A stretch of DNA of 64,000 nucleotides from an uncultured Prevotellaceae bacterium (GTDB lineage Bacteria > Bacteroidota > Bacteroidia > Bacteroidales > Muribaculaceae), in contig ONEL01000017.1 of the NCBI GenBank assembly GCA_900316835.1, positions 1-64,000 on the forward strand. The letters are read 5' to 3'. Shown one piece after another: positions 7,787-62,273 of this stretch. Numbering within the stretch: the first letter of the stretch is position 1; each line of letters opens with the position of its first letter. A program made the translations under genes and the position numbers. Under the pieces are notes generated by a model. It was not told the DNA's origin, searched no databases, and saw only the letters and a list, made by a program, of their open reading frames with translations.

Positions 7787-8095
7787 TCACTTTACCACCA
7801 CCTTGCGTGACCACTTACCCACGCACTTGACGATGTAGAATCCCTTAGGGAAATCGATAGTTACTTTAGTGCCAGCATTCACCTTGACCGACTTGATGAG
7901 CTGACCAGTGATGGAATAGATGTTGAATGTGGCATCGCTCTCGCCAGCGGTCATGGCTATTGTAGCCTTGCCACCCACCACGTTAGCCTCATCGCTTGCC
8001 ACCTGCTCGATGCGTGGCTCGGCAAGCGCAACCGCGCCCGGCGCTGTCACGCCAAGCACTAAGGCTAAAGTTAATATGTAGAGGATACGTTTCAT
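7787..8095 (-). CDS. Small secreted protein made almost only of a type IX-like tail, 102 aa
   Basis: I choose the internal ATG at 8095 because a longer reading frame (to 8158) would run through a good promoter at 8105-8135. The protein is then a signal peptide (MKRILYILTLALVLGV...) plus about 78 residues. The second half (FNIYSITGQLIKSVKV ... FPKGFYIVKC ... RKVVVK) resembles the C-terminal sorting domain (Por_Secre_tail) normally found behind a large cargo domain. Almost no cargo is present here. It could be a remnant of a larger gene or a small cell-surface protein. Function unknown. Confidence 0.7.
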   Translation of the reverse strand: MKRILYILTLALVLGVTAPGAVALAEPRIEQVASDEANVVGGKATIAMTAGESDATFNIYSITGQLIKSVKVNAGTKVTIDFPKGFYIVKCVGKWSRKVVVK

Positions 8096-51288: not shown

Positions 51289-51333
51289 TAATTTTGCAAC
51301 TTGGAAAAAGAATTAACAACATCAAATATATGA
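51289..51333 (+). repeat. Direct repeat, copy 1: promoter-leader-start segment of the antitoxin gene
   Basis: A 45-nt segment TAATTTTGCAACTTGGAAAA...TATATGA. It contains a -7 element (TAATTTTG, 51289-51296), the leader and the antitoxin ATG (51330-51332). It matches 51859-51903 at 44 of 45 positions, 570 bp apart. Confidence 0.9.
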
Positions 51334-51596
51334 CTACTAAACAAATGCAAATGAATACCGAGCTCTTCAGGTTGCTCCAGGAAATTTGCGCCAACGAGGA
51401 CTTGATGAGCAAAGGCATTAAGGCTCTCAAACGCATTTTAGACAAACACAAAGCCGATGAGAGCATCATGAGCGAGGAAGAACTCAACGCTAAAATTGAA
51501 CGTGCCATTAAAGCCTACGAACAAGGTGAATGCCATGCAATGGAAGCACATGAGGACTTAACAGCCTACTTAAAACGTCGAGGTCATGACCTATAG
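51330..51596 (+). CDS. Antitoxin of a YoeB-type toxin-antitoxin pair, 88 aa
   Basis: I start at the ATG at 51330, which occupies the same place in the direct repeat as the start of the lipoprotein gene. The protein has a helical N-terminus (TELFRLLQEICANEDLMSKG), a SEEELNAKIERAIKAYEQGE helix and a C-terminal EDLTAYLKRRGHDL. It is not a standard YefM/Phd but resembles the Bacteroidota antitoxins found beside Txe/YoeB toxins. It would bind and neutralise the toxin and repress its own promoter. The stop overlaps the toxin start by 11 nt. Confidence 0.8.
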   Translation: MTTKQMQMNTELFRLLQEICANEDLMSKGIKALKRILDKHKADESIMSEEELNAKIERAIKAYEQGECHAMEAHEDLTAYLKRRGHDL

Positions 51597-51861
51597 TATA
51601 ATTATCTCACCCGAGGCCGAGAAAGACTTTGTTAAGCTAGCTAAAAGCGAACCCAATGCATATAAAAAAGCTAAAAATTTGCTTGAGGAATTAAAAACAA
51701 ATCCTACCACTGGCACCGGGCATCCCGAGCAGCTCAAAGGTGCGCTAAACAACGTGTGGAGCAGGCGAATAACAAGAAAACACAGGCTTGTGTATAAAAT
51801 CATTGACAATAAGGTTATTGTACTTATCTTATCAGCTTTTGGACATTATAGTGATAAATAA
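51586..51861 (+). CDS. yoeB: Txe/YoeB-family mRNA interferase toxin, 91 aa
   Basis: RelE-superfamily fold with the YoeB pattern HPEQLKGALNNVWSRRITRKH and LVYKI, then ILSAFGHY. The catalytic residues of E. coli YoeB (Glu46, Arg65, His83) correspond to Glu48, Arg67 and His87 here. It cleaves mRNA in the ribosomal A site when freed from the antitoxin. The TAA stop (51859-51861) is also the first three bases of the second repeat copy and of the -7 element for the next gene. Confidence 0.9.
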   Translation: MTYSIIISPEAEKDFVKLAKSEPNAYKKAKNLLEELKTNPTTGTGHPEQLKGALNNVWSRRITRKHRLVYKIIDNKVIVLILSAFGHYSDK

Positions 51862-53553: not shown

Positions 53554-53847
53554 ATGTCTTGCACAAGAGTTCTACTAGCAATCATCTTCCCTCCCCTTGC
53601 CGTTGTCGACAAGGGGTGCGGGTCGTTCTTGATAGTTTTCATCCTCACCTGCTGTGGATGGATTCCTGGAGTGATAGCTGCTCTAGTCATCCTCAACAAC
53701 GATAAGGGACAACACTACAACCATGGCTACAATCAAGGTTATAACCAAGGCTATAACAAAGGCTATAACCAGGGGGCGAGCCAAAATCTCTATGGTAACA
53801 ACCAGCCACATAATGCTAACAGAAATAGTGGCTGGAAAGGATGGTGA
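53554..53847 (+). CDS. YqaE/Pmp3-family membrane protein with Tyr/Asn/Gln repeats, 97 aa
   Basis: The two-helix Pmp3 core is clear: VLLAIIFPPLAVVDKGCGSF followed by ILTCCGWIPGVIAALVIL. A tail of four YNxGYN-type repeats (HGYNQGYNQGYNKGYNQG) and an Asn-rich end follow. Pmp3/YqaE proteins are small stress-linked membrane proteins that affect membrane potential in yeast. The low-complexity tail is unusual. It precedes the Fur gene by 36 nt. Confidence 0.88.
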   Translation: MSCTRVLLAIIFPPLAVVDKGCGSFLIVFILTCCGWIPGVIAALVILNNDKGQHYNHGYNQGYNQGYNKGYNQGASQNLYGNNQPHNANRNSGWKGW

Positions 53848-53883
53848 CAAGCCACCCCTTCTTTAAAACATAGAATAATAGTG

Positions 53884-54330
53884 ATGGATTCTCAGCAACA
53901 TCTCACCCACATTCTCGAGCATCGAGACATTAAGCCCACAGCCATGCGCCTGCTGGTGTTACGCGCTATGCTTGAGAGCGACGAGGCCTTCTCGTTGCTC
54001 AGCCTTGAGCAACGTCTCGACACGGTCGACAAGTCCACCATCTATCGCTGCATCACTCTGTTCCTTACCCACCATCTCATACATGCCATCGACGATGGAA
54101 CAGGAACTATAAAATATGCCGTGTGCGACAGCAGTTGCCACTGTGGTGAGGAAGGCGAGCATCTCGACGACCTGCACGCCCATTTCTACTGTGAGCGTTG
54201 CCACCACACTTATTGCCTGAGTCGCATCCATGTTCCGGTGGTATCGCTTCCTGGCAACTTTCAGGTTCATAGTATCAACTATGTGCTCAAAGGTATTTGC
54301 TCTCACTGCACCAGCAAGGACAACCAATGA
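53884..54330 (+). CDS. Fur-family transcriptional regulator, 148 aa
   Basis: A winged helix (about 15-70; KPTAMRLLVLRAMLESDEAFS, STIYRCITLFLTHHLI) and a metal-binding dimerisation domain with CHCGEEGEH, HAHFYCERCHHTYC and the C-terminal ICSHC pair. The two CxxC pairs form the structural zinc site. It may be closest to Zur or PerR-like Bacteroidota regulators; the metal sensed cannot be decided. I start at the ATG at 53884 rather than the GTG just before. It may regulate the adjacent Pmp3 gene. Confidence 0.88.
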   Translation: MDSQQHLTHILEHRDIKPTAMRLLVLRAMLESDEAFSLLSLEQRLDTVDKSTIYRCITLFLTHHLIHAIDDGTGTIKYAVCDSSCHCGEEGEHLDDLHAHFYCERCHHTYCLSRIHVPVVSLPGNFQVHSINYVLKGICSHCTSKDNQ

Positions 54331-54518: not shown

Positions 54519-55991
54519 ATGAAAAAAGATTTCTCCCATTATTTCGCAAGCGTAGCCTTAGTGATAGCTATGATTGCTTTAGCAATGCCGGCGGCAGCAC
54601 AAGGACGCCGACCAGGTGGTCATGGCAGTGGCAACGCGCCACAGGCAGGTGGACGCTCAAGCGCCACAATGCAATCTCCCCGTAGCAGTAGTTCTTCAAG
54701 CCGACCAAGCGCTACCATGCAATCACCTCGCAGCAGTAGTGTCTCGTCGAGCCGTCCCAGTTCATCTCCACAAAGCTACAATCGTAGCAGTAGCTCAAGT
54801 CGCCCCAGCGCCTCTCCACAAAGCTACAATCGCAGCAACAACCAGGTGAACCGTAGCGTGAGCAATAATAATCGCCCCAGCAGTGGCAATCGTTCATGGG
54901 GTGACATCAACAATGGAAACAATCGCCCTTCGGGGGGTAGTGGAATGACAGCACGTCCTGCCACTAGCAATCGCCCTAATAGCGACTTCAAAGCTACCTA
55001 TAACACCACTAAACCAGTGAGCCAAAACATGGAACGCGGCAAAATTGTAAAACCTGCCGATAACAAGCACGGAGGCAACCATGGTGGCAATGGTGGCGGA
55101 AACTACCGTCCTGGCGACAACAACGGCGGTGGCAACCATGGCGGTAACTACCGTCCTGGCGACAACAACGGCGGCGGAAACAATCGTGGCGGAAACCATG
55201 GTGGAAACTATCGCCCTGGTGACAATCGTGGCGGAAACCATGGCGGAAACTATCGTCCAGGCGACAATCGTGGCGGAAACCATGGCGGAAACTACCGTCC
55301 TGGCGACAATCGTGGCAACCATCGCCCGGGTGGCAACTATGGTCACGGCGGTCCACAACATCGTCCACACCATGGTGGCATCAACCACGGCGGTCCACGT
55401 CCCGACTACAACCGCTATCGCTGGACTAGCAGCTTCCGTCCTCGCGTGCGTCACGACCGCTGGTACGACTACTATCGATACAACCGCTGGAGCTGGCGCG
55501 CTCCCATTGCTCCTCCCGTGCGCATGTGGCGTCCACGCGTCGTGTGGTATTACCGCCCCGTAATTCCTGTAGGCTTCCGCTACTATGCCTCAGCACCCAT
55601 CATCACTGGAGTTCTGGGTTTGGAATTTGGAACCTATCTTGATGCTTCGCTCAACTTCTTGTACTACAATGGCTACAACATTGACGGCTATCAGGACAAT
55701 GTGGTCTACCTGCGCGACGTGCAGATGATGGGCTATAGCTGGCCCGACGTAATGTTGCAGTACGACAATGGCGGTGGTATGTGCTACGCTCAGTTCACCA
55801 CCTCATCGAGCTATCAAGACAATTATCGCTTCGACAACCTTTACCACAGCCTGTGCAACACCTATGGTTCCCCCATCCGTGGTAACAATGGTGAATTCTC
55901 TTGGTACGGAGGCAACGGAACCGGCTACATCAACCTGTACTTCAACTACGACGCTGGTCGTTACTACACAGTGCTCACATTTGGAGCATAA
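54519..55991 (+). CDS. Secreted Arg/Tyr/Trp-rich protein with long low-complexity linker, 490 aa (paralogue 1)
   Basis: A signal peptide ending AMPAAAQGRRP is followed by a Ser-rich region with SRPS and QSYNRSSSS repeats (about 40-140), then a Gly/Asn/His-rich block with three perfect 14-residue repeats GGNHGGNYRPGDNR plus degenerate ones (about 185-285). The last 190 residues form a conserved domain: YRWTSSFRPR, WYDYYRYNRWSWRAPI, GVLGLEFGTYLDASLNFLYY, NVVYLRDVQMMGYSWPDVM and FSWYGGNGTGYINLYF. The same domain ends the protein at 57196-58452. Probably exported; could be a matrix or surface protein. No known family recognised. Confidence 0.8.
   Translation: MKKDFSHYFASVALVIAMIALAMPAAAQGRRPGGHGSGNAPQAGGRSSATMQSPRSSSSSSRPSATMQSPRSSSVSSSRPSSSPQSYNRSSSSSRPSASPQSYNRSNNQVNRSVSNNNRPSSGNRSWGDINNGNNRPSGGSGMTARPATSNRPNSDFKATYNTTKPVSQNMERGKIVKPADNKHGGNHGGNGGGNYRPGDNNGGGNHGGNYRPGDNNGGGNNRGGNHGGNYRPGDNRGGNHGGNYRPGDNRGGNHGGNYRPGDNRGNHRPGGNYGHGGPQHRPHHGGINHGGPRPDYNRYRWTSSFRPRVRHDRWYDYYRYNRWSWRAPIAPPVRMWRPRVVWYYRPVIPVGFRYYASAPIITGVLGLEFGTYLDASLNFLYYNGYNIDGYQDNVVYLRDVQMMGYSWPDVMLQYDNGGGMCYAQFTTSSSYQDNYRFDNLYHSLCNTYGSPIRGNNGEFSWYGGNGTGYINLYFNYDAGRYYTVLTFGA
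55188..55313 (+). repeat. Three tandem 42-nt in-frame repeats
   Basis: Units 55188-55229, 55230-55271 and 55272-55313 each encode GGNHGGNYRPGDNR. They differ only at silent positions, so the array is recent or under selection at the protein level. Confidence 0.9.
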
Positions 55992-56052
55992 CACCGCCAG
56001 CTTCATTCATCACTAGCAAAAATTCCTTTTCTATATTTGCTCTATACACAAG

Positions 56053-56097
56053 TTCAGCGTCGCCACAAGCAATCTTGAAAGCGACGCTGGCTTTTTT
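56053..56097 (+). terminator. Intrinsic terminator of paralogue 1
   Basis: Stem CAGCGTCGC / GCGACGCTG with a 17-nt loop and a T-run. Confidence 0.85.
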
Positions 56098-56255
56098 TGC
56101 GACTTTTAGAACACTAATAACTCCAAATACCACCAGTATCACCCATTTTCCAATTCACAAAAACACTATACCTTTGCAGTCGCTTTTGTGATGAGAAATC
56201 ACGCTTAGCGAGATATAATAAAATATTTAAACCCATTATTAATAATATTTAGAGT

Positions 56256-56891
56256 ATGAGAAAATTATTATTTAGCGCAGTGTTTGCGCTTTGCGTTTTG
56301 TGCGGTTACGCGCAGCAGTATGTGGATGTGGATCGCGAAGTAATTGAAATCCCCTATAACTATATCAACAATAGTAGCATAAGTTTAAAAAACAAACTTG
56401 TAAAAATATTTGGTGTTGAATACACTGTCGACATTCAAAATATAAGGCTCAGCCCTAACTGGTTTGGAGTAGAAATTATTGCCAAGAATTCCCAAGATGG
56501 CACTTGGAGCACCGAAGACTGGAGCATTGAGCAGTCATGCGTAAATGAAGACAAGACCGCCGACATCCATGGCAACACATCGAGCTGCAAAGCTAGCCTA
56601 TTTCAAAACTATGACTTTGAAGTTAACTCAATAGTTCACTTGCTCACCCCCGAAACACACAGCAACATTGAGGTGGAATATATAATTCGCGACAACAATG
56701 GAGCTAAGTTCACGCTGGTGCTTGTGTTCCCTTACAACTCTGGCACTATCACAGCCATCGACAGCGTGCTAGCAACCGAGCAGCAACCCATTGAGTACTA
56801 TGACTTGCAAGGCAACCGCCTGCTCGCCCCCACAAGCGGCATCATCATCGAGAAACAAGGTAGCCGCGTGAGCAAGAAGCTCTATCGTTAA
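56256..56891 (+). CDS. Small secreted protein with type IX-like tail, 211 aa, function unknown
   Basis: Signal peptide (MRKLLFSAVFALCVLCGYAQ), then a beta-rich domain of about 150 residues with no recognised family, then IEYYDLQGNRLLAPTSGI and KQGSRVSKKLYR, which resembles the C-terminal sorting tails of other secreted proteins in this window. Codon use is AT-richer than in the neighbouring paralogues. Lies between the two low-complexity paralogues. Confidence 0.7.
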   Translation: MRKLLFSAVFALCVLCGYAQQYVDVDREVIEIPYNYINNSSISLKNKLVKIFGVEYTVDIQNIRLSPNWFGVEIIAKNSQDGTWSTEDWSIEQSCVNEDKTADIHGNTSSCKASLFQNYDFEVNSIVHLLTPETHSNIEVEYIIRDNNGAKFTLVLVFPYNSGTITAIDSVLATEQQPIEYYDLQGNRLLAPTSGIIIEKQGSRVSKKLYR

Positions 56892-57009
56892 CATCTTGTT
56901 ATACACGATTCGTTCATAAGGTTTGGATTAAATATAGTTAACACACACACATCGCACAATACACCCACATGTGATTTTAGGTCGCATAATGGGTGTATTG
57001 TCTTTTTTG

Positions 57010-57040
57010 TTGCGCAAGTGAAGAAAAATGCTTACCTTTG
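57010..57040 (+). promoter_or_regulatory. Promoter upstream of the small ORF and paralogue 2
   Basis: TTG at 57010-57012 and TACCTTTG at 57033-57040, spacing 20 nt. The leader to ATG 57196 would be about 150 nt and includes the small ORF at 57075. Confidence 0.65.
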
Positions 57041-57074
57041 GTAGATTTTTTTAGGCAGTTGGTCTATAGAAACG

Positions 57075-57167
57075 ATGAAAACGGCAGTAATAGCAGTCAT
57101 CGGGGCAAATGCCAGTGTTAAACCTAAACCATTTATTAAGGTCAAACTAGCAAAGAAAAACATTTAA
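57075..57167 (+). CDS. Possible 30-aa leader peptide
   Basis: ATG to TAA, encoding MKTAVIAVIGANASVKPKPF then IKVKLAKKNI. It is hydrophobic then strongly basic, begins about 30 nt after the predicted transcription start and ends 28 nt before paralogue 2. It could be a regulatory leader peptide, a small membrane peptide or chance. No homologue known to me. Confidence 0.35.
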   Translation: MKTAVIAVIGANASVKPKPFIKVKLAKKNI

Positions 57168-57195
57168 ATTATTCACATTTTAAAATTAGAGCATT

Positions 57196-58452
57196 ATGAA
57201 AAGGACAGTTTACAACACAATGATTGGCTTGATGCTCGCATGCGGGCTCGCCATGACATCGACTGGAGCAATGGCACAAGGCCGTCGTCCAGCATCCAAT
57301 TCAAATGCGGCAGCAGCAGGCAACCGCAGTGTTGCCACTGCCACTCCACGAAATAATAATGCCGCAACAGTAACTAACAATGTAGCTCCCGCAAGCCGCT
57401 CGACTGCCACAACGGCACGTCAATCGGTAAGTAGTAGCCCCCAGGTGAATCGCAATAGCAGCGTGAGCAACAATGCCAGCAACCGCACAGCAACCTCCAC
57501 CAGCACTACTCGTCCCAGTGTAAACAAGGGCTCTACCAGCACCAGCACTGCGCGTCCTAGCACTAGTGGCAACAAATCAAGCTCAGTGCGTCCCTCGGCA
57601 GGCAACCGCTCGGCAAGTGGCAACAGCGTGAGCACCACTATCAACACCAGCACCAGCAACGTTCGCCCTGCCACAAACACTAACAATGGTGGCAGCAACC
57701 TTCGTCCCGGTAGCAACAACAGTGGTAGCAACAACACCGTTCGCCATGGCTCAACTGGTAACAATGGTAGTAATAGAGGACACGTAGCAGTTCCTAGCCG
57801 TCGCCCAAGCGACAACCGCCCCAAGGTGGCTGGCACAGTGATGACAGGCGCTAGTCCCAAGGTTGACTACAATGCTTATCGCTACACCAGCAGCTGGCGT
57901 CCTCGCTACGATGGCGACCGCTTCTTCAACAACTATCGTTACAACAGTTGGAACTGGGCAAGTCCCATTCGTCCCTCGGTTCGCCCTTGGCGTCCCACCA
58001 CCGTTTGGGTATACCGTCCCATCGTGACAGTGAACATTAGCCGCTACTCAAGCTATCCCACCATTGGTGGCGTGCTTGGCCTCGCATGGGGAACTTCATT
58101 CGGCAACGTATTGAACTACCTCTACTACAGTGGCTACTACATCGACGGATACATGGACAACGTAGTATACCTGACCGACGTGAGCTTGCTCAACTACGAC
58201 TGGGACGACGTCATGATCCAGTTTGATGGCAACAACAGGATGGACTATGTAGAGTTTGCTTACTGGGATTCAAGCTATGATACCAGTCGCTACTACAGCC
58301 TCTACAACTACCTGTGCAGCATGTATGGCAGCCCTGTTAGCTACAATAATGCGATGTACTCCTGGTATGGAGGCGACGGCATTGGGTTCGTGAACCTGGG
58401 CTTGCAATACACCCCCGACTACAACTACACCATCCTCGCCTTTGGCGTGTGA
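57196..58452 (+). CDS. Secreted Arg/Tyr/Trp-rich protein with Ser/Thr/Asn linker, 418 aa (paralogue 2)
   Basis: Signal peptide ending GAMAQGRRP, the same cleavage context as in paralogue 1. Then about 190 residues rich in Ser, Thr, Asn and Arg with SxxRPS-type repeats and no Gly/His block. The final 190 residues match the end of paralogue 1: YRYTSSWRPR, FNNYRYNSWNWASPI, GVLGLAWGTSFGNVLNYLYY, NVVYLTDVSLLNYDWDDVM and YSWYGGDGIGFVNLGL. The folded domain is conserved while the linker is not, so the linker may only need composition and length. Own promoter and terminator. Confidence 0.8.
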   Translation: MKRTVYNTMIGLMLACGLAMTSTGAMAQGRRPASNSNAAAAGNRSVATATPRNNNAATVTNNVAPASRSTATTARQSVSSSPQVNRNSSVSNNASNRTATSTSTTRPSVNKGSTSTSTARPSTSGNKSSSVRPSAGNRSASGNSVSTTINTSTSNVRPATNTNNGGSNLRPGSNNSGSNNTVRHGSTGNNGSNRGHVAVPSRRPSDNRPKVAGTVMTGASPKVDYNAYRYTSSWRPRYDGDRFFNNYRYNSWNWASPIRPSVRPWRPTTVWVYRPIVTVNISRYSSYPTIGGVLGLAWGTSFGNVLNYLYYSGYYIDGYMDNVVYLTDVSLLNYDWDDVMIQFDGNNRMDYVEFAYWDSSYDTSRYYSLYNYLCSMYGSPVSYNNAMYSWYGGDGIGFVNLGLQYTPDYNYTILAFGV

Positions 58453-58892
58453 GATAATGGTTAACTGCTAGTAGAAAGGAAAACAAATTAGAATAATCAC
58501 TTCCAAGCGCTATCAAGAGTTAAAGCCTCTTGATAGCGTTTTTCTTTTTTAGCTGAAAATTAGGGTGCGTTTTTTTGTGTATAGGCATAAAAAAAATTAT
58601 GCAGGTGTTTCTCAACAGCCGCATAAAGTAAACCTTAAAAATCTAATCCTATGAAAAAACTTGTTGCAAATATATGCCTCCAGAGCTAATCCTGCAAGTG
58701 TTGAATGAAAAAAAAACTTGTTTTTAACATTTTTTTAGCGACAATGTGCAAATCTATCGTCAGTTTGGGTAGAAACAGAATTTTTTTACAAGAAAATAGA
58801 AGAAAAATAACTAACTTCGTGCCCTGAACATCAATTAATTATAACTCCTACCCGTTTGGGTAGGGATAAAGGAATACATCGCTTAATAACTA
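58453..58892. other. AT-rich intergenic region before rnz
   Basis: Contains the paralogue-2 terminator (58506-58550), a 12-codon ATG frame at 58651 that I do not call a gene, and a small hairpin CCTACCC-GTTT-GGGTAGG at 58847-58864, 28 nt before the rnz start. No other feature seen. Confidence 0.5.
58506..58550 (+). terminator. Intrinsic terminator of paralogue 2
   Basis: Stem CGCTATCAAGAG / CTCTTGATAGCG with a short loop, followed by TTTTTCTTTTTT. Confidence 0.9.
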
Positions 58893-60647: not shown

Positions 60648-62273
60648 TCAATAAGGCGCTTGAGTAACGCGACGCTTACCTGGAGGAGGTGGTACCGCCA
60701 CATTGCGATTGCTGCGAGTGGGATCGCTACTTGCGCTACTGCGGGCTGGTGGCACACTCCTTGACGCTGATGATTGAGGTTGTGAGGGTTGTGAGGGCTG
60801 TGCCTGTTGCACTGGCTGTTCTTGAGCCACTTTGGCCTCGGGTTGTGGTGGAACCGGTGGCGTGTAACCCTCGTCGTCGTCATCGTCAAATGCCGCAGGA
60901 TAAGGATCATAACGTTCAGCACGAGGCACTCTCACATTGCTACCACTAGGATAAGACACATCGGGAGTGGGGACTGAAGTTACTCGTGGTGCGGGAGGCA
61001 CTGGCACATCGGTACCAATAGCCATGGAATCGACAGGTTCCTCGGGAAGCACCGAGTCGATGGTCACATCGGGATTAATGAGCGTGTCGGGCTTTTGAGC
61101 ATTCACTACTGGTGTGCTAGGCTTGCGCAGCATGAAACAAGCAGTAATGCCTGCTGCCAGTAACACAGCTGCCAGCACTATCCAAAGGCCTTTTTTCAAG
61201 TTGCTCTTATCGCTTGCCACAGCCGCATGGGCATCCTTGCCCTTGTTTTCATCAACCACACCTTGAGCATTCTCAATGGCTGGTGGTGGGGCTAAGGTTT
61301 CCTCTTTGCGCTCGGTAGCTTCAACAGGTGTAATGGACGGAGGTGCTACTGAGTCATCACTTAGAGCCGGCACAGGAGCCTCATGAACATCTTGCTCCTC
61401 ATCGCCACTGGCATCAACAGCAAGTGGCGATGCCGCAACAATCTCAGTCGCACTTGCTTCCTTCTCGCCAATCGCTGTGGCAGGGCTAGCAAGTGGCTCA
61501 TCTCCTTCTTCTTTTTCAACAGCATCTACTTGAAGCAAGAATGCGCTACGGTTGTCGGCCCCGCCTTGAATTTTCATTTGCAAGTAGGCAAGTTTTTGAG
61601 AATTGGTTTTACTCTCATCGGCAAGTATTGCCATGAGCTGCTTGTCACTAATCTCTCCACACACACCATCGCTGCACACAATGAAATAGTCGCCAGGCTT
61701 AACATCGGCAATAAAGACGATGTCGGCCCTCACGGGGCGACCAGGTATCATGGCGCGAGTAAGAATGTTGCGTTTGGGCGACGCCTCGGCTTCGGCGCGT
61801 GTGAGACGTCCCATCAGGAAGAGATCATTAACTAGCGAATGGTCACGCGAGCGATACATCACTTGCCCCGTTGAGGGACGCAGGTGATAAATGCGGCTGT
61901 CGCCAATGTGCGCCGCTACCACTCCATTGCTCGTGAATGCAAGCATGGTGAGTGTAGTACCCATCGATTTCTCGCTATCAAATCCTGAAGCCACTGCCTC
62001 AAGGGCATGTTGAGCATTTAACACCGCTTCACTCACCTTCTCGCGAGTGAGTTGCTGGCCGGTGGCGAGATACTCATCAACCCATTTTCCCATGGCACTA
62101 GCCACAGCCGCACTAGCAACCTCACCATTGTCAAGGCCACCTAGCCCGTCGCACACTACAAACACTCGGCTACTAGCCGATAGCTGCTCAAGCTGCGGAT
62201 AAATCGCGTCTTCCTGCTTTTGTCGCTTGCCTATCTCATAGATTCCAAGCGGATTATGTAGCCTAATTCTCAT
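60648..62273 (-). CDS. PP2C-type Ser/Thr phosphatase with TM segment and proline-rich region, 541 aa
   Basis: Residues 1-255 form a PP2C domain: QKQEDAIY, VVCDGLGGLDNGEVAS, SMGTTLTML, HIGDSRIYHL and CSDGVCGEISD, with the metal-binding aspartates. A spacer rich in Ala/Glu/Pro (about 255-340) leads to one membrane helix (about 343-364; LWIVLAAVLLAAGITACFM). The last 175 residues are Pro/Ser/Gln-rich with an acidic DDDDDEGY patch and a basic end, probably outside the membrane. PP2Cs reverse Hanks-type kinase phosphorylation; no kinase gene is in the window. Confidence 0.88.
   Translation of the reverse strand: MRIRLHNPLGIYEIGKRQKQEDAIYPQLEQLSASSRVFVVCDGLGGLDNGEVASAAVASAMGKWVDEYLATGQQLTREKVSEAVLNAQHALEAVASGFDSEKSMGTTLTMLAFTSNGVVAAHIGDSRIYHLRPSTGQVMYRSRDHSLVNDLFLMGRLTRAEAEASPKRNILTRAMIPGRPVRADIVFIADVKPGDYFIVCSDGVCGEISDKQLMAILADESKTNSQKLAYLQMKIQGGADNRSAFLLQVDAVEKEEGDEPLASPATAIGEKEASATEIVAASPLAVDASGDEEQDVHEAPVPALSDDSVAPPSITPVEATERKEETLAPPPAIENAQGVVDENKGKDAHAAVASDKSNLKKGLWIVLAAVLLAAGITACFMLRKPSTPVVNAQKPDTLINPDVTIDSVLPEEPVDSMAIGTDVPVPPAPRVTSVPTPDVSYPSGSNVRVPRAERYDPYPAAFDDDDDEGYTPPVPPQPEAKVAQEQPVQQAQPSQPSQPQSSASRSVPPARSSASSDPTRSNRNVAVPPPPGKRRVTQAPY

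Follow-up and report, generated by a model that had tools for sequence, protein, structure and literature searches.

The window analysed here is a stretch of 64,000 nucleotides from an uncultured Prevotellaceae bacterium of the family Muribaculaceae (contig ONEL01000017.1), and its subject is a pair of related genes, here termed copy 1 and copy 2, each encoding what reads as a signal peptide, a cationic low-complexity arm, an Arg-Pro/aromatic hinge and a C-terminal head (Table 1). The same four-part architecture recurs across the Muribaculaceae, so that its occurrence in the pair is not a matter of chance. Within the whole genome, a single-sequence search and a profile search alike returned copies 1 and 2 only. 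The original prediction, made from the sequence of the window, described the two proteins as paralogues that share a QGRRP motif and a C-terminal domain, joined by a low-complexity middle, and this description holds: both reading frames are intact, QGRRP occupies residues 28-32 in both, the middle is rich in Ser, Gly, Asn and His in copy 1 and in Ser, Thr and Asn in copy 2, and the copies are 50% identical in the core of the head and 51% over the 45-residue hinge, against 30% in the arm and 27% in the first 30 residues. The likeness between the two arms (0.304) lay above the null mean of 0.208 obtained with one arm shuffled, and was reached in none of 100 shuffles. A conserved block that had been given as YSWYGG(N/D)G is indeed present, but its first residue is Phe in copy 1 (FSWYGGNG) and Tyr in copy 2 (YSWYGGDG), and it is better written (F/Y)SWYGG(N/D)G.

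Table 1. Features of the gene pair and its flanks, with positions in the window. ORF, open reading frame; pLDDT, predicted local distance difference test; pTM, predicted template modelling score; L numbers denote related loci.
Feature	Position	Strand	Basis and remarks
Copy 1 gene	54519..55991	+	490 aa, intact ORF; head-profile match 252.6 bits
Copy 1 signal peptide (predicted)	54519..54599	+	Cut before Q28 (AAA-QGRRP), read from the sequence and the Q-rule; signal region without cysteine
Copy 1 cationic Ser/Gly/Asn/His/Arg-Pro arm, with GGNYRPGDN-type repeats	54600..55493	+	Net charge +28 over residues 31-316
Copy 1 Arg-Pro/aromatic hinge	55494..55589	+	Column conservation; limits set by the authors
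Copy 1 head, 133 aa	55590..55988	+	AlphaFold2 pLDDT 93.6, pTM 0.87
Possible -7 element TAccTTTG, 5' of copy 2	57033..57040	+	By eye; conserved in L032, but in neither L033 nor L034
Copy 2 gene	57196..58452	+	418 aa, intact ORF; head-profile match 227.4 bits
Copy 2 signal peptide (predicted)	57196..57276	+	Cut before Q28 (AMA-QGRRP), read from the sequence and the Q-rule
Copy 2 cationic Ser/Thr/Asn-rich arm	57277..57954	+	Net charge +22 over residues 31-244
Copy 2 Arg-Pro/aromatic hinge	57955..58047	+	Column conservation; limits set by the authors
Copy 2 head	58048..58449	+	Alignment of heads; hinge and head model (181 aa) mean pLDDT 75.2
Intrinsic-terminator-like hairpin, 15 pairs, 3' of copy 2	58505..58541	+	Consensus scan

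Both proteins appear to be exported, as had been proposed, and on the evidence of their sequences both carry the Q directly after an AxA site that marks the Q-rule class of signal peptidase I substrates. A loose AxA-Q pattern, taken as predicted cleavage, fits 52 of the 60 distinct complete members of the family that we collected from the loci fetched, and both copies by reading. According to an excerpt of PMC5837995, signal peptidase I substrates of Bacteroidetes usually have Q after the cleavage site, and the Q of QGRRP is therefore not special. No lipobox cysteine was read at the end of the signal in either copy; the single Cys in the signal of copy 2 lies within the hydrophobic segment, ahead of further hydrophobic residues and the AMA-Q site. 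Nor did a Pfam scan place any C-terminal sorting-tail family of the type IX secretion system (T9SS) on either copy up to an E-value of 1. A search of the bacterium's own genome for Por_Secre_tail found five places, none of them in the two copies; three of the five lie over the cut-off, and some T9SS-type sorting may therefore exist in the bacterium. A weak Por_Secre_tail match of 21.8 bits, below the cut-off, was seen in the window at 7811-7969 (- strand).

Conserved hinge and fast-changing arm

The 60 members were those left after removal of duplicates, of genes cut by the end of a locus and of ORFs lacking a motif of the (I/V/L)(L/F/I)G..(F/W)G type, and the arm was defined as starting at residue 31 and ending some 48 residues ahead of the motif. 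The hinge that follows it has the consensus RP..PP.R..RP....RP..P...RPY..AP, and the mean frequency of the top residue per column is 0.56 in the hinge and 0.58 in the head, compared with 0.26 in the 16 columns before the hinge. The Arg-Pro stretch is thus conserved like the head and is not a plain spacer, in keeping with its having been counted as part of the C-terminal domain. It may also bear some resemblance to proline-rich antimicrobial peptides. The hinge is net positive in all 60 members, whereas the head, which contains conserved aromatics by column conservation, is net negative in 53, neutral in four and positive in three.

Arms range from 32 to 312 amino acids, with a median of 214, and every one of the 60 is net positive. 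In the 59 arms of 40 amino acids or more we counted 486 RP dipeptides, a four-fold excess over the mean of 120 in 500 shuffles (standard deviation 9.7, maximum 148); this total is inflated by tandem repeats within the arms and by the kinship of the members, and the safer figure is that RP exceeds expectation in 57 of the 59. The reverse dipeptide, PR, is below expectation in the same arms (72 against 120). R-P bonds withstand trypsin, and we considered whether the dipeptide serves to evade it; the explanation is weak, as Pro follows only 35% of the arm Arg residues and most Arg sites stay open.

The original prediction had also called the middle of the proteins fast changing, and comparison of orthologues agrees: in 10 of 11 pairs that we picked, arm identity was 34-58% and core identity 77-97%. 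The eleventh, the near-identical pair L035/L036, has an arm (92%) that does not lag behind the core (90%). In the members examined, the charge of the arm and its RP grammar, rather than its sequence, seem to be what selection maintains.

Predicted fold and family searches

Structures were predicted with AlphaFold2, run with 11 sequences, for the head of copy 1 (133 residues) and for the hinge and head of copy 2 (181 residues). The copy 1 model, at the confidence given in Table 1, consists of a helix, about four strands, a second helix and three or four strands, and it is consistent with the folded C-terminal end that had been foreseen. In the copy 2 model the late hinge (residues 34-48) falls below a pLDDT of 50, while the earlier hinge scores 67-76 by block.

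The best fold matches of the head in the Protein Data Bank (PDB), some of them envelope domains, are modest and tied. The YdcD double-wing protein (8wj5) matched the copy 1 head model with Z 8.2, a root-mean-square deviation (rmsd) of 3.2 and 10-11% identity over 100 aligned residues; an integrative model of TagH (9a4o) gave Z 8.0 and rmsd 3.4, also over 100 residues, although the TagH crystal chain 5bnd reached a Z of only 6.2; and YjgB, a DUF4309 protein (4ygt), gave Z 8.0 and rmsd 4.3 with the longest alignment, 117 of 148 residues. YjgB was also matched by Foldseek with probability 0.94 and a template modelling (TM) score of 0.49 on the query, but its Z values in two comparisons, 7.0 and 8.0, are level with rows of other families. 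Chains of BLIP occur among the 50 Foldseek matches listed, with E-values of 0.075 to 0.31 and TM scores of 0.34-0.36 on the query; BLIP is absent among the VIA-align matches listed, and BVU2987 among any matches listed, which excludes neither. Taken with the order of its elements, the head model suggests a BLIP-like arrangement, not a proven kinship.

Higher-scoring matches came from phage protein models. Four uncharacterised models in BFVD match the head with E-values below 0.001 (down to 2.7e-5), and the best of them, A0A8S5T817, has a TM score of 0.77 on the query, better than the PDB entries listed. A phage origin was tried and rejected: a tblastn search of the copy 1 head against 50,697 phage records gave one chance match, to two records of the same phage, at E 4, and PHROGs had nothing for the two heads.

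That the proteins belong to no described family, as the original prediction had it, is borne out by the libraries: Pfam, NCBIfam, PHROGs (two heads only) and the PDB sequences contained no family or match beyond chance-level rows. The DUF4309 model (PF14172) matched neither these proteins nor anything else in their genome, whereas the Bacillus subtilis control was found. Among the listed papers on secreted and outer-membrane proteins of Muribaculaceae, no publication on this protein family was found by title.

Distribution, history and neighbourhood

The family was traced with a head profile built from 39 sequences (A1). No more than 8 to 11 first-look candidates were scored in each genome, so that absences are bounds. 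The profile matches 273 of 397 Muribaculaceae genomes, in 25 of 30 genera, and 160 of the 222 good genomes among them. Within the bacterium's own genus, 81 of 84 listed genomes match, 21 of them in two or three places by our count of rows; most matching genomes carry one copy. In a sample of the order, three of 295 genomes match, all three belonging to the same family, and in a sample of the phylum the single match among 296 is the genome of the window itself. In the samples, then, the family is restricted to Muribaculaceae.

In a tree of the 60 members, copy 2 sequences of four species form a clade (support 100/100), copy 1 sequences of five species form a weak group (89/45), and the two groups together form a clade (99/98). 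The duplication therefore predates those species, if the weak copy 1 group holds. At one related locus (L013, about 2270-2835, + strand) we noted an ORF that runs off the end of the contig and whose start, MTRFNFNN..AMAQSRGERNGRGRV, resembles that of a further signal-bearing, Arg-rich protein; this genome may thus have a truncated second copy.

Gene neighbourhoods were compared at 28 loci, those of 27 relatives together with the window's own. Among the neighbours, queA (seven loci) and rnz (six) are shared most widely, mostly within the genus, and as both are housekeeping genes they were rejected as conserved operon partners. Locus L034 keeps the order of a WG-repeat lipoprotein, Pmp3, a Fur-like gene, copy 1 and copy 2. 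In the window, the Pmp3 membrane protein (53554-53847, + strand; E 3.9e-12) has a tail of GYNQGYNQ-type repeats, and its placement beside the Fur-like gene and copy 1 recurs in L034; the Fur-like gene (53881-54330, + strand) encodes a short regulator with Cys pairs, whose score of 20.4 bits misses the Pfam cut-off of 23.1. Between the two copies lies a secreted-looking orphan of 211 amino acids (56256-56891, + strand), whose C-terminus gives the impression, though no more than that, of a sorting tail; a relative with 68% identity is found in L032 (4418-5071), and neither has a Pfam family. Further away we observed a YoeB/RelE-like toxin gene (51294-51861, + strand; YoeB_toxin E 9.8e-19) with an antitoxin-sized small ORF just upstream, and a PP2C-type phosphatase (60648-62273, - strand; E 1.6e-13) with a long low-complexity tail.

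The sequence TAccTTTG upstream of copy 2 was judged against what we take to be the Bacteroides -7 consensus. A small frame between this element and copy 2 (about 57075-57167) was considered as a leader peptide and dropped, since visual comparison did not show it to be conserved in L032, L033 or L034. Since a terminator-like hairpin lies 3' of copy 2, transcription of this gene probably does not run on into the next one, although the scan found 12 such sites in 6.5 kb where 6.8 were expected and a lone match proves little. Measured against 20 genes of the genome's ribosomal-protein region, the codon adaptation of the copies ranks 10 and 18 among 67 mechanical ORFs of at least 200 amino acids, a modest hint from sequence that they may be fairly well expressed.

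Possible function and comparison with known systems

We put at roughly 40% the probability that these are periplasmic or surface proteins whose cationic arm anchors them to the polyanionic envelope, leaving the head to bind a protein partner. From the signal sequences and the known pathway, Sec and signal peptidase I would release into the periplasm a soluble protein with an N-terminal glutamine or pyroglutamine. The disordered Arg-Pro arm would then hold the protein electrostatically on polyanions of the envelope, for example the phosphates of lipid A or a capsule, and the hinge together with the acidic, aromatic-rich, BLIP-like head would form the specific part, binding a protein partner in the manner proposed for other BLIP-like domains. 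This last step is drawn by analogy with partner-binding proteins of the BLIP-like type, which an excerpt of PMC2954215 presents as periplasmic domains, including Bacteroides ones, that are probably inhibitors.

A number of observations weigh against this proposal. The 28 loci reveal no neighbour that is conserved between genera, 62 of the 222 good genomes lack a match, and the charge of the arms was set against no background, the other secreted low-complexity controls amounting to four rows of which two were family members. On the side of the head, Foldseek returned weak fold matches to the PDB and none with an E-value below 0.001, best Z values of 7 to 8 are usual for models without a clear match, and an antifungal effector (9j9w, Z 7.1) stands close behind the top matches. 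The BLIP-like superfamily, taken as BLIP (PF07467), SmpA_OmlA/BamE (PF04355), PepSY, DUF2874 or PepSY_like (PF11396) and DUF3192, gave no model up to E 1 in a Pfam scan of both copies and the 39 heads. Profile-profile comparison with the superfamily covered PepSY_like alone; PepSY_like is itself present in 15 of 21 related genomes, and against 26 of its proteins hhalign gave a probability of 0.16%, with E 0.37 over 19 columns. An internal duplication of the BLIP type is not claimed: the two halves of the head match each other with a profile probability of 0.13%, and 60 column-shuffled controls had a higher median (0.31%; best 28%). Finally, in the portion of PMC10653890 concerned, CopD does not contact its partner through its BLIP/PepSY-like extracellular part.

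Other readings draw on much of the same evidence. Long, low-complexity cationic arms of variable length, conserved aromatics in the head and fair codon adaptation would also suit a matrix or adhesion protein of the kind that the original prediction had in mind, released or held at the surface, in which the sticky arm attaches to mucin, capsule or DNA, with the head as a cap or a homotypic contact. We find this doubtful, because no surface route was found in the form of a Pfam sorting tail or a lipoprotein cysteine, although the genome does have the three Por_Secre_tail matches, and because the single copy in most matching genomes would be unlike a repertoire of adhesins. The BLIP-like arrangement of the model, and the inhibitory role that an excerpt of PMC2954215 argues for Bacteroides BLIP-like proteins, speak for a secreted or periplasmic inhibitor of an enzyme (a protease, or one resembling lysozyme or a penicillin-binding protein), which might act as BLIP does on beta-lactamases; with a BLIP match as weak as that reported above, and no sequence link to BLIP-like families, such a role is unlikely.

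The concave face of BVU2987 is negatively charged and is expected, according to an excerpt of PMC2954215, to bind a partner of positive charge. Here a positive segment lies in the same chain as an acidic head, which suggests a self-assembly in which arm or hinge docks on the head of another molecule or on its own, producing oligomers or condensates at the envelope. The opposite charges of the parts fit, as does a hinge conserved like the head; but the low pLDDT of the late hinge, which gives no hint of stable docking in the monomer model (whose contacts went unexamined), together with the three members in which the head is positive, make this quite unlikely. More speculative still is a self-built layer or condensate restricted to Muribaculaceae, with the fast-evolving RP arm, conserved in nothing but charge and grammar, docking via the hinge on the acidic aromatic face of neighbouring BLIP-like heads; if true, arm length, from 32 to over 300 residues, would adjust the spacing, with mixed assemblies arising from the two paralogues. 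The original prediction saw in the His content a possible metal-binding spacer, for which the arm of copy 1 (5% His) and the upstream Fur-like gene, present in both the window and L034 and possibly tied to it, could be cited. As a shared property this is not supported: His exceeds 5% in only 16 of the 60 arms and makes up 1% of the copy 2 arm, so that no His-rich segment is kept across members, and the Fur-like neighbour is not conserved across genera. What the arms share is net positive charge and RP motifs, and we consider a role in metal binding very improbable.

Whatever the function, the most fitting description of the pair is a new architecture, limited to one lineage and built around a head of BLIP-like type; the finding is real, and none of the libraries searched describes it. 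Matched in about two-thirds of the genomes examined of its family and seen in none outside it, the protein is a candidate family-defining trait of the envelope, and a candidate marker, of the Muribaculaceae, a family dominant in the mouse gut. The pair further provides a clear-cut example of a disordered arm seemingly kept for its charge and dipeptide grammar, and because this arm stands beside a conserved hinge and head, their roles should be separable by simple truncations.

The proteins resemble the BLIP-like superfamily in being apparently exported and in having a small head, in which helices and antiparallel strands are predicted to form two helix-sheet halves. The order of the predicted elements roughly fits the tandem helix and four-stranded sheet fold of that superfamily, although the TM scores with BLIP itself are low. 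They differ from it in possessing a long cationic RP arm and a conserved hinge, and in lacking a detectable internal sequence repeat. Bacillus subtilis YjgB shares the fold match, but with 8-12% identity and no DUF4309 match, and the C-terminal domain of TagH and the YdcD double-wing protein (names from PDB titles) are tied with it at 10-11% identity; TagH is a subunit of the wall teichoic acid transporter. With the mycobacterial proline-rich antigen MTC28 (Rv0040c) and the fibronectin-binding Apa the fold match is in the noise (Z 4.5-4.8 and 3.9, respectively) and no sequence similarity was shown. The parallel lies only in how these proteins may work, for they too are secreted proteins with a head, and both carry a Pro-rich arm.

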